The notes beneath the pieces are model-generated. The model did no database searches. It had not been told where the DNA came from and was given only the letters and a program-made list of their open reading frames with translations. Made by a program: the position numbers and the translations under genes. 5,368 nucleotides of DNA from JBHIBR01 sp046759145 [NCBI: Nitrospinota bacterium] (lineage in GTDB: Bacteria > UBA8248), in assembly GCA_046759145.1 (NCBI GenBank), contig JBHIBR010000147.1:1-5368 (forward strand), read 5' to 3'. The stretch's first letter is position 1, and every line of letters starts with the position of its first letter. Shown here piece after piece: positions 2,349 to 5,368 of this stretch.

Positions 2349-2378
2349 AAAAAAAACCCCGCACTTAAATGTGCGGGG
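2349..2378 (-). terminator. Strong Rho-independent terminator, leftward
   Basis: A perfect 8-bp stem pairs CCCCGCAC with GTGCGGGG (2378-2371 and 2364-2357 on the minus strand) around the loop ATTTAA. An uninterrupted run of eight Ts (2356-2349) follows. It could end the candidate RNA starting near 2433 and any read-through from the UGSC operon. It sits directly before the NYN gene. Confidence 0.92.
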
Positions 2379-2435
2379 CGCGTCGGGATGGGCTGCAAAG
2401 CAGCGTCACCGACGTGATGAGGCCCAACTCTTCAC
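2349..2435 (-). ncRNA. Candidate small structured RNA or attenuating leader upstream of the NYN gene
   Basis: From the predicted start near 2433, the leftward transcript would fold into three adjacent hairpins. Hairpin 1 is GTGAAGAG (2435-2428) with CTCATCAC (2421-2414), including one A-A mismatch and a 6-base loop. Hairpin 2 is CGTCGG (2414-2409) with CCGACG (2386-2381), enclosing an internal loop and GCTGC-TTT-GCAGC (2404-2392). Hairpin 3 is the terminator. Nearly all of the ~85 nt is paired. The RNA ends about 20 bases before the NYN start codon, so it could be a free small RNA or a regulatory leader that controls read-through into NYN-trmJ. It matches no riboswitch consensus that I can recall. 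Structure is seen; transcription is inferred. Confidence 0.5.
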
Positions 2436-2658: not shown

Positions 2659-3213
2659 CTAGCGGCCGGCGGGCACTCTCATGGCCCTCAGGAGCTCCGC
2701 CACCTGGTCCACCGCCCCCCGGGCCTGCTCATCCATCTCCTCCTCGCTGCGGTTGGAGATGGGATGGGGGATGACGGCGTAGGCGAAGTCCTCCGCCCCC
2801 TTGGCCATCCGGATGGCCTCCGCCGAGATGGTGAACTCCTCGGTGCAGATGGTGGCCTCCGGGATGCCGCTCCGCTCGAGCTCGATTCCGTCGTGCACAC
2901 TGCACGAGCTGCAGCTCCCTCAGTCGCCCACCCCGTTGAGGACAAAGTCAGCCTCGCCCCGCAGGCGCTCGATCTGCTCGGTGGGGACGGGCCGCGAGCT
3001 CGAGGGCTTCCGCAGGGCCAGCGTCCGGACCAACCCGTAGCGGGCTGCCAGCAGATCGGCCACTTTCTCCAGCACCCGGTCGGAGTTGGGCTTGCCGTTG
3101 ATGAGGAGGCCGAGCCTCTTCCCCTCCAGCTCCCCCGTTCGGGGGGCCGGCAGGAACTCCTGGGTTTCGGGCTCGGTGCTCGGGTCGAGCAGCTCCAGGT
3201 ATCCCTTTTCCAT
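2659..3213 (-). CDS. UGSC-family selenoprotein (in-frame UGA = Sec98), 184 aa
   Basis: Reading from the ATG at 3213, the frame runs 97 codons to NGVGD, meets TGA at 2922-2920, and continues without interruption as GSCSSCSVHDGIELE to the TAG at 2661-2659. With Sec at the TGA, the motif is U98-G-S-C101-S-S-C104, the signature of the UGSC (seleno)protein family, whose other members may carry Cys at this site. The N-terminal half has GLLINGKPNSD (35-45). The C-terminal half has GIPEATICTEEF and a helical tail. The Sec/Cys cluster implies a redox or metal-thiol role, but the reaction is unknown. The start is set by AAGGAG (3226-3221), 7 bases from the ATG. There is no signal peptide, so it should be cytoplasmic. 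It follows the 357-aa partner by 29 bases in one operon. The downstream piece has an in-frame GTG (2898-2896), but this lies inside the motif and has no ribosome binding site. A mutated Cys codon (TGC to TGA) is the alternative; the SECIS-like hairpin argues against it. Confidence 0.9.
2891..2907 (-). promoter_or_regulatory. Bacterial SECIS-like hairpin downstream of the UGA
   Basis: In the mRNA, UGA (2922-2920) is followed by 12 bases and then a perfect 7-bp stem, UCGUGCA/UGCACGA, closed by the 3-base loop GUG (2900-2898). The loop begins 20 bases after the UGA and has G first and U second. This fits the known bacterial SECIS rules: hairpin inside the coding region shortly after UGA, small apical loop, and G in the first two loop positions for SelB binding. 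A partly overlapping pairing, AGCUCG/CGAGCU, could compete with the lower stem. Confidence 0.8.
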
Positions 3214-3228
3214 CGCGCATCTCCTTCT

Positions 3229-3242: not shown

Positions 3243-4316
3243 TCAGTGGCACTCGATGCACGCCCCGATGGCCCGGGTGACGGCGCGGGTCATGGAGGGC
3301 GCTCCCCAGCCCGGCAGCACCGCCGAGAAGCGCCCCGCAGGCCCTCCTGCCGCCACGACCAGGATGTCCTCGGGAGAGGGAGCCGCCTGGCGAAAGGTGG
3401 CGTGGTCTTCGGGCGCGAGCTCCCCTGCCACGCGGCCCGCGCGCTTGAGGTCCGCCACCGAACGCTGCGCCCGGGCGTGGAGGTAGCGACGGACCTCCAC
3501 CTTCTTCCAGCCCGCACCCGCCAGGAAGTGGGCGTGCTCGGGGGCGATTACCACCACGAACTGCTGGTTGCGGGCGGCGTTGGGCGTGCCCAGCGAGACG
3601 ATGGTGTCGGCCATGGCCTCCAGGACACTCTCCGGCCTGCGCCCGAGGTGGCTGTTCACCTGGTGGGGGCTCTCGGTGGCGATGACGGTCACGGCGCTCA
3701 GCTCGCGGTCCAGCCCGCGCTCCACGTGGAGGGGCGTCCAGCCGAGCCGGCCGCAGAGCTCCTCATCCTCCCCGATGCAGAAGGTGAACTTTCCGGGCGT
3801 CCCGAGCGTGGAGCGGTCCACCCGGCCCGGCACCGTGCCCGCCGCGTTCACCAGGATGAGGCGCACCGCCCGGCCGATGACCGCGTTGGCCCGCCTGCCC
3901 TGGCCGAAGAGGTTCTCTCCGCAGTTGATGTCCAGCTCCCGCACGGCGGGGCCGTTGACGATGAGGAGTGTGGCGGCCCCCTGCGTGCTCGAGGTGGGCC
4001 CGTGGGCGCCGAAGGGCTCGCTCAGGATGGCCTCCATGGTCGCCAGCACCACGGGGAAGTGGGCGGGCATGCAGCCCGCCATGACGGCGTTGATGGCGGC
4101 CTTCTCCACCGTCACGACCCTCCTCCGCACGGGGATGGCGCCCAGCACCTCCTCCGGCTCCCGGGCCACGGACTCCACCATCGCCCGCACCTTCCCCTCG
4201 GTGGGGGGGACGATGGGCAGCCCGTCCGTCCAGCCCCGGCGGTGGTAGAGCTCCTGGGCTTCGTCGAAATCCCTGACCCGGACCCGACCTGAGCGGAATT
4301 TCGAGGCGGTGCGCAC
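3243..4316 (-). CDS. Conserved UGSC-operon partner protein, 357 aa, function unknown
   Basis: I recognise this as a conserved bacterial family seen next to UGSC-type genes, without an established reaction. Visible blocks: RGWTDGLPIVPPTEGKV (28-43), VEKAAINAVMAGCMP (70-84, C82), LLIVNGPAVRELDINCGENLFGQG (117-140, C132), VDRSTLGTPGKFTFCIGEDEE (166-186, C180) and PLHVERG (195-201). Near the end come ILVVAAGGPAGRFSAVLPGW (318-337) and a terminal CIECH (353-357). There is no signal peptide or membrane helix, so it should be cytoplasmic. The frame opens further upstream to 4469, but I choose GTG 4316. GGGAGG (4332-4327) lies 10 bases before it, the conserved part begins soon after, and the promoter at 4414-4386 would start transcription near 4379, inside the longer version. 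It is the first gene of the operon; the selenoprotein follows after 29 bases. Its several Cys residues make it a plausible redox partner or substrate-handling subunit, which is inference. Confidence 0.88.
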   Translation of the reverse strand: MRTASKFRSGRVRVRDFDEAQELYHRRGWTDGLPIVPPTEGKVRAMVESVAREPEEVLGAIPVRRRVVTVEKAAINAVMAGCMPAHFPVVLATMEAILSEPFGAHGPTSSTQGAATLLIVNGPAVRELDINCGENLFGQGRRANAVIGRAVRLILVNAAGTVPGRVDRSTLGTPGKFTFCIGEDEELCGRLGWTPLHVERGLDRELSAVTVIATESPHQVNSHLGRRPESVLEAMADTIVSLGTPNAARNQQFVVVIAPEHAHFLAGAGWKKVEVRRYLHARAQRSVADLKRAGRVAGELAPEDHATFRQAAPSPEDILVVAAGGPAGRFSAVLPGWGAPSMTRAVTRAIGACIECH

Positions 4317-4385
4317 GGTGGGGTTTCCTCCCGGTGGTGAGATGTGCGGGCCCTCGCCCGCCGAAGGGGTGCCCTCGTTGCCCCC

Positions 4386-4414
4386 ATTATACCTGCAGTG
4401 TAGGCGACGGCCAA
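4386..4414 (-). promoter_or_regulatory. Promoter of the UGSC operon
   Basis: On the minus strand, TTGGCC (4414-4409), a 17-base spacer and a perfect TATAAT (4391-4386) predict a start near 4379. This leaves a leader of about 63 bases before the GTG at 4316. TATAAT stands out in otherwise GC-rich sequence. The promoter is about 85 bases from the divergent promoter of the 124-aa gene. Confidence 0.75.
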
Positions 4415-4568: not shown

Positions 4569-4943
4569 GTGGAACGCACGTTGCGGGAGGGGGGGATCAA
4601 GGAGGTGGCGGAGCTCCTCTCCGTGCCCGCCCGCTGCGGGATTGTCCTCACACGCGCCCGCATCCGGGCCATCGCCTCGCACCTGGGGGTGCCGGCGGGC
4701 ATGCAGAGCAAAAGCCGCATGGTCGAGAGCCTCTTCCGCGCGGCGGGGGGGATGGGCAAGGCCGAAGAGCTCCTGGAGCTCATGGCCCGGGAGGCCGGCC
4801 TCTGGAGCGCCCGCTACCGCTTGTGGCAGAGGGCCTGCCCGCCGGCTTCGGCCATCTGGGAGGAGTGGACCGCCGAGGGCCGGGAGCTGGCGAGGCACCT
4901 GCGGCGGGCCCGGAAGCTGGCCCGAAAAACCGCCCGGGGCTGA
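4569..4943 (+). CDS. Hypothetical basic protein, 124 aa, possible SAP/Rho-N-like helix pair
   Basis: The family is not recognised. The start is GTG at 4569, fixed by GGAGG (4557-4561) 7 bases upstream. The segment at about 30-58 (RARIRAIASHLGVPAGMQSKSRMVESLF) has the rhythm of SAP or Rho-N-type nucleic-acid-binding helix-loop-helix units: a helix ending LG, then a loop with Lys, then a helix with ESL. This is a weak resemblance. A helical segment follows (64-76), then a Trp/Tyr-rich region (W79, Y83, W86, W97, W100), and a strongly basic tail (112-123, RRARKLARK) suited to RNA or DNA contact. There is no signal peptide or membrane helix. It is divergent from the UGSC operon and ends only 21 bases before the first rRNA promoter. 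It has no clear terminator, so some transcripts may continue into the rRNA leader. The function is unknown. Confidence 0.75.
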   Translation: MERTLREGGIKEVAELLSVPARCGIVLTRARIRAIASHLGVPAGMQSKSRMVESLFRAAGGMGKAEELLELMAREAGLWSARYRLWQRACPPASAIWEEWTAEGRELARHLRRARKLARKTARG

Positions 4944-5297: not shown

Positions 5298-5310
5298 TTG
5301 GAAGCTTTTC

Positions 5311-5368
5311 AATTGGAGAGTTTGATCCTGGCTCAGAACGAACGCTGGCGGCGTGCTTAACACATGCA
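5311..5368 (+). rRNA. rrs: 16S ribosomal RNA, 5' end only
   Basis: The sequence AATTGGAGAGTTTGATCCTG and what follows is the universal 5' end of bacterial 16S rRNA: the 27F priming site at 5317-5336, then GAACGAACGCTGGCGGCGTGC and TAACACATGCA. The mature 5' end is taken as about 5311, aligned to E. coli, and is uncertain by a few bases. The gene runs off the right edge. The G-A-A-C-G-A-A-C-G variant is common in several Gram-negative phyla and does not identify the organism by itself. Confidence 0.98.

Follow-up and report, generated by a model that had tools for sequence, protein, structure and literature searches.

Two minus-strand ORFs in a contig from a Nitrospinota bacterium (JBHIBR01 sp046759145) are separated only by an in-frame TGA. 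This raises the question of whether they are the fragments of a broken gene or a single protein with selenocysteine (Sec) at the TGA and, in the latter case, what such a protein would do. We analysed the window, i.e., the whole stretch of 5,368 nucleotides, and compared its genes with homologues in other genomes. The reading that we prefer, and hold with moderate confidence, is that the UGSC-family protein encoded by the two ORFs and the product of the gene just upstream, which we call NB, form a two-part selenoenzyme expressed from a two-gene operon, probably a reductase resembling GrdB or PrdB. The features of the locus are collected in Table 1.

Table 1. Features of the UGSC-NB locus in the window.
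Feature	Positions	Strand	Remarks
UGSC-family selenoprotein gene	2659-3213	-	184 aa across one TGA (Sec98); ATG start; TAG stop 2661-2659
Ribosome-binding site of the UGSC gene, AAGGAG	3221-3226	-	5' of the ATG; from sequence
Sec98 codon, in-frame TGA (codon 98)	2920-2922	-	Window sequence and column comparison
Cys101, UxxC partner of Sec98	2911-2913	-	Cys in 168/168 distinct Sec genes
Cys104	2902-2904	-	Cys in 89/168 distinct Sec genes; not family-wide
SECIS-like hairpin, TCGTGC-AGTGT-GCACGA	2891-2907	-	+15 to +31 from the T of the TGA; six pairs
NB, partner gene	3243-4316	-	357 aa; GTG start at 4316; TGA stop 3245-3243, 29 bases upstream of the UGSC ATG
Ribosome-binding site of NB, GGAGG	4327-4331	-	From sequence
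NB Cys82, best-kept NB cysteine	4071-4073	-	Cys in 162/172 NB hits
Promoter-like site, TTGGCC-17-TATAAT	4386-4414	-	Consensus match alone, 10/12; about 70 bases before NB
Terminator-like hairpin and T run	2356-2379	-	Consensus match alone (3 such hairpins found, 1.5 expected); about 280 bases after the UGSC stop

Sec decoding in the UGSC gene

The first-pass annotation had joined the two ORFs across the TGA at 2922-2920 into one protein, with GVGD-U-GSC-SSC-SVHDGIELE around Sec98, and had placed this protein in the UGSC family. The profile searches bear out both claims. PF24696 matches residues 7 to 176 of the window protein, across the TGA (E 1.8e-54, 184.9 bits for a cut-off of 25), and NF041046 scores 152 bits (cut-off 125), both scores exceeding the curated cut-offs. 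The UGSC profile is matched over nearly its whole length, and the UGSC motif, with Sec or Cys in first place, is present in the window protein and in its near relatives. The good ribosome-binding site noted for the first half is indeed there, 7 bases from the ATG (3226-3221), and the second ORF is, as had been said, devoid of a credible start, because its GTG at 2898 is codon 106 and sits inside both the conserved motif and the SECIS-like hairpin described below. As a member of the UGSC family the window protein is ordinary, and we found nothing that sets it apart.

Searching a single genome for each species, a procedure biased towards close relatives, we collected 52 related loci; TGA occupies the Sec column in every one of them. 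A wider set (L001-L215) comprises these loci and homologues from Rokuibacteriota (the phylum of L001), the class of G026 (Reyranella), and Bacillota (the phylum of G003). It gave 187 hits of the UGSC profile among fetched loci, which are the better scorers; 183 of these hits cover the Sec column and 4 do not. The codon at this column is TGA in 177 hits, TGT in five, and TGC in one. Among 146 matches, 126 were listed with one TGA each, and all 20 TGA-free ones were examined: 12 have Cys at the Sec column, six have Met, one has Gly, and one does not cover it. A residue other than Sec or Cys at this column had been named beforehand as an observation against Sec decoding, and it does occur in distant Bacillota relatives, as Met in six and as Gly in one. 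The Met-type relatives (L202-L205, L262, and L263) are fused proteins with GDMGTS in place of GDUGSC and without Cys101, and they, like the Gly-type protein, keep NB in the same frame. Hence, some NB-UGSC proteins do without a selenol or thiol at position 98. Because these relatives are remote (15-19 bits against the UGSC profile for the Met-type ones), they do not undo Sec in the branch of the window.

The earlier proposal of Sec98, Cys101, and Cys104 as the active centre was sustained for the second residue and not for the third. Cys101 is found in 183/183 domain hits, its absence being confined to some TGA-free relatives (L256, L260, L261, and the Met forms), and Cys104 is Cys in just 93/183. 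Since Cys101 is constant and Cys104 is not, the centre of the Sec proteins is the pair Sec98-Cys101. Cys104 may be of help in the window protein, but it is dispensable for the family.

The conservation of the SECIS-like hairpin was evaluated in 174 distinct regions, including the window, of which 168 are Sec genes and 6 are Cys genes. At least five of the six pairs are formed in 156 of the 168 Sec genes and in none of the six Cys genes. Hairpin cells are paired in 93.7% of cases, against 71.8% when codons are redrawn synonymously (standard deviation 1.3, maximum 75.6, 300 trials) and at most 71% when the partner is slid by 1 to 9 bases. Pairs 18-28, 20-26, and 17-29 vary yet mostly stay paired: the first is T-A in 103 sequences and G-T in 46, and the second is C-G in 142 and G-C in 18. 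In the first 82 genes, the change from T-A to G-T accompanies those of Cys104 to Gly and of His107 to Leu, so that the related copies may reflect few events. Within the hairpin, Ser105 is encoded by AGT in 144/144 cases, Cys104 by TGC in 89/89, and Ser103 by TCG in 95% of 140. The 12 Sec genes without a hairpin in the +15 to +31 register are all from Bacillota, in which it is present in 8/20. Compared with synonymous shuffles, the 51 bases after the TGA show no gain in folding stability (median z -0.21, 82 genes), and the claim of a SECIS therefore rests on conservation and covariation.

We searched for tRNA-Sec and SelB in the genomes of 29 of the 52 related loci. A tRNA-Sec with at least 63 bits was found in 26 of them. 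The other three have signals of 44-47 bits, a range shared with many lesser hits, and two of these just pass the gathering score of Rfam (47 bits); control genomes also give signals below the cut-off in this search. SelB scores above the cut-off in 27 of the 29 genomes, compared with 2 of 14 controls. When the TrmJ of the window was compared with 20 genomes, the closest were G018 (50% identity) and G008 (45%), and no close relative was among them. The decoding of the TGA as Sec, put forward in the first-pass annotation, agrees with its presence in 52/52 near relatives, with the conserved hairpin, and with the machinery found in most of the 29 genomes. Comparative evidence thus supports a locus that encodes one Sec-containing UGSC protein and not two gene fragments.

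NB, the partner of UGSC

The gene upstream, overlooked in the first reading of the sequence, is a near-constant partner of UGSC. NB was detected at 49 of the 52 related loci, and it lies at most 200 bp away and on the same strand for 160 of the 183 UGSC hits. Across 94 genomes of Rokuibacteriota, 70 have both genes, 23 have neither, one has UGSC only, and none has NB only (Fisher p 5e-21); the genome in which only UGSC was matched is G036. The copy numbers of the two genes are also correlated in the 70 genomes that have both (Spearman 0.91). In-frame fusions, with UGSC first, account for 32 of the 183 domain hits, i.e., 24/26 in Bacillota and 8/75 in Rokuibacteriota. The fusions and the pairing together indicate that the two genes of the window correspond to a single two-domain protein elsewhere.

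The NB protein of the window has no match to a Pfam or NCBIfam family, nor to the PDB. When 45 NB members were compared with the families, the hits were weak and scattered, with at most two members per family. The GrdE domain (PF09338) gave no hit in the NB of the window at E up to 10, nor was it among the families listed for the 45 members, and we saw no similarity between NB and GrdB. A likeness of fold to fumarate hydratase was considered and rejected as too weak (best Foldseek chain E 9e-5, TM 0.26), as were other fold assignments, the best of which aligned 89 residues with Z 6.7.

Fusions of UGSC have been seen before. The Global Ocean Sampling study, in whose Table 2 UGSC has the fifth largest selenoprotein count, reports a fusion, UGSC/Unknown_1, in which UGSC is joined to a domain without known function (PMC2398784). 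At a guess, Unknown_1 may be NB. A 2026 review places UGSC among the families with largely uncharacterised functions (PMC13188914). What is new relative to the family as described in PF24696 and NF041046 is the NB partner and the link to GrdB.

Kinship with GrdB and predicted fold

GrdB is the Sec subunit of glycine, sarcosine, and betaine reductase, in which its Sec domain is catalytic, and PrdB is the Sec subunit of D-proline reductase. The UGSC protein of the window matches the GrdB model weakly in the Sec region (E 7.6e-5) and does not reach a full-length match (TIGR01917, 21.8 bits for a cut-off of 602.2). We made a profile of 23 GrdB proteins of Bacillota, aligned and read through the TGA, and compared it with that of UGSC using hhalign. 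The two match over 92 columns with 29% identity and with Sec on Sec (E 3.5e-9). The match persists in the same register when the motif is masked (E 1.7e-6), and reversing either side alone abolishes it. With E up to 1 allowed, GrdB was the commonest second family in searches with 49 UGSC members (31 members, best 8.1e-7), followed by the general selenoprotein-B model (27), GrdF (26), GrdH (18), an NAD kinase model (15), and PrdB (10). The likeness to PrdB is a weak one, seen in fewer members than that to NAD kinase. UGSC members match 18 NCBIfam families, none of them a thioredoxin model.

These profile comparisons indicate homology between the second half of UGSC and the C-terminal domain of GrdB, which bears the Sec, with UxxCxxC, E..G(I/L)P, ICT, and IPHP in register. 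The two proteins differ in the rest of their architecture: the N-terminal half of UGSC is different, the first approximately 340 residues of GrdB are missing from it, and the partner of UGSC is NB, not a subunit of the GrdE type. We found no literature linking UGSC to GrdB in a search largely outside subscription journals.

The AF2 model of UGSC (pLDDT 89.2) is a Rossmann-like sandwich in which Sec sits where a helix begins. The structural matches of the model are generic, the best being a designed protein (Z 10.2) and a chain of the methyl-CoM reductase activation complex (Z 10.1), with the others at 8.5 or less. No solved GrdB structure was matched. The list of matches contains no thioredoxin, a missing match that in itself excludes nothing; a thioredoxin-like fold had been suggested for UGSC in 2008 (PMC2398784).

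The putative enzyme, its rivals, and its genomic setting

The two-part enzyme brings together the Sec-decoding signature, the pairing and fusion with NB, and the homology to GrdB, all established computationally. It would work as follows. SelB, directed by the hairpin 15-31 bases past the TGA, would insert Sec98 into the UGSC subunit, and NB would be the second subunit, equivalent to the C-terminal half of the same chain in fused relatives. The substrate site probably lies in NB and may involve the conserved Cys82 of this subunit. In a step like the one proposed for GrdB and PrdB, the selenolate of Sec98 would attack the substrate or take its leaving group. Cys101 would then resolve Sec98 as a selenenyl sulfide. 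Thiol donors could re-reduce Sec98: thioredoxin would serve in the cytosol, and exported relatives would use a relay of CcdA/TlpA or MauE. The physical NB-UGSC complex, the reductase chemistry, and the electron donors are what we infer from this assembly of evidence.

In the main competing explanation, UGSC has a thioredoxin-like fold and serves as a thiol-disulfide oxidoreductase or peroxidase of general function, and NB is its client or a docking protein. The UxxC motif would fit it, and CcdA/TlpA neighbours in some Bacillota would suit a disulfide reductase, but the modelled fold (pLDDT 89) is a Rossmann-like sandwich, the homology found is to GrdB with 0/18 matched NCBIfam families being thioredoxin, and the fact that UGSC almost always occurs with NB, and is in places fused to it, speaks for a single dedicated enzyme; we consider this explanation unlikely. 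Alternatively, NB could be the real enzyme, with chemistry that uses no selenol, and UGSC an accessory that regulates, protects, or reactivates it, Sec being useful and dispensable. The retention of NB by the six Met-type and the one Gly-type fused relatives speaks for this, as does the conservation of NB residues such as Cys82 (162/172). Against these observations stand a Sec that is never replaced in the 52 near relatives, a Cys101 that is always kept there, and the known catalytic role of the GrdB Sec domain, which make such a division of labour distinctly improbable.

The UxxC motif might also bind a metal or metalloid, for detoxification or delivery, with no redox catalysis. According to the 2026 review, about one-fifth of selenoprotein families have a predicted binding capacity, mostly for metals (PMC13188914). 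Yet none of 40 scanned proteins, mostly neighbours of UGSC, matches a family named for metal transport or resistance, and Cys104, the natural third ligand, is present in only about half of the domain hits. This leaves metal binding as a very improbable account of the motif. Finally, the TGA could be a true stop, a sequencing error, or the mark of a decayed gene, and it is true that the Sec machinery is known from the genomes of relatives and not from that of the window. However, the TGA is identical in 52/52 loci, the conservation of the protein runs on beyond it, and the hairpin is conserved, so that this explanation retains hardly any probability.

Beyond the window, we propose as a tentative generalisation, to which we give rather less than an even chance, that UGSC and NB make up an unrecognised and widespread class of GrdB-like selenoreductases of largely uncultured bacteria. 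Such enzymes would occur in up to 12 copies per genome and in split and fused forms, many of the fused ones being exported and supplied by CcdA/TlpA or MauE, and would reductively cleave small organic substrates imported by transporters that adjoin some copies. In Rokuibacteriota there are 359 UGSC matches in 95 genomes, with up to 12 per genome, as expected of paralogues with different substrates; such numbers suggest selenium-dependent metabolism on an unexpected scale. In this phylum, up to 9 of 38 regions have genes of peptide-type ABC transporters in the vicinity of UGSC. In Bacillota, CcdA, TlpA, MauE, or GrdE/GrdB are found within 5 kb of UGSC in 10 of 20 regions, and redox genes are near it in 1/52, 1/38, and 0/20 regions of the other three sets; these counts are descriptive because the probes came from the Bacillota regions, some of which share a genome. 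A hydrophobic leader precedes 15 of 26 Bacillota UGSC domains, five of them with a lipobox, by a crude test. In one region (L242:641-12381), a fused UGSC-NB gene is flanked by a TRAP transporter/URO-D gene and, downstream, by successive genes for GrdE, GrdB, a TrxB-like protein, thioredoxin, and GrdA. At 19-22 of the 52 loci, UGSC has a Nuo/formate-dehydrogenase-like cluster close by; because it is absent from the other sets, we did not use it to assign function. The interest of the locus lies in the unnamed partner NB, the kinship with GrdB, and the expansion of copy number: with a constant partner, and with a homologous Sec domain whose setting is known, the orphan UGSC family becomes a testable two-protein enzyme.

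Five further proteins (L195-L199, in regions L244-L248) are Cys forms with the motif CGLC and a hydrophobic leader; CcdA lies within 5 kb in 4/5 of them and a TlpA-like gene in 4/5. In the Bacillota regions L236, L237, L238, L243, and L251, between two and four UGSC copies occur within one region.

In the rest of the window, the ORFs at 357-728 and 4569-4943, both on the plus strand (123 and 124 aa), match neither Pfam nor NCBIfam at E 0.001. Positions 5310-5368 match the start of a bacterial 16S rRNA gene over 59 positions, cut by the end of the window (49.5 bits for a gathering score of 50), and beyond this start the Rfam scan gave just a weak match to Hrs1, below the gathering score. The stretch from 1600 to 2600 has a lower G+C content than its surroundings (48-55% in 400-base windows, compared with about 70%) and may have been acquired; it includes a gene with an NYN domain on the minus strand (1864-2328).
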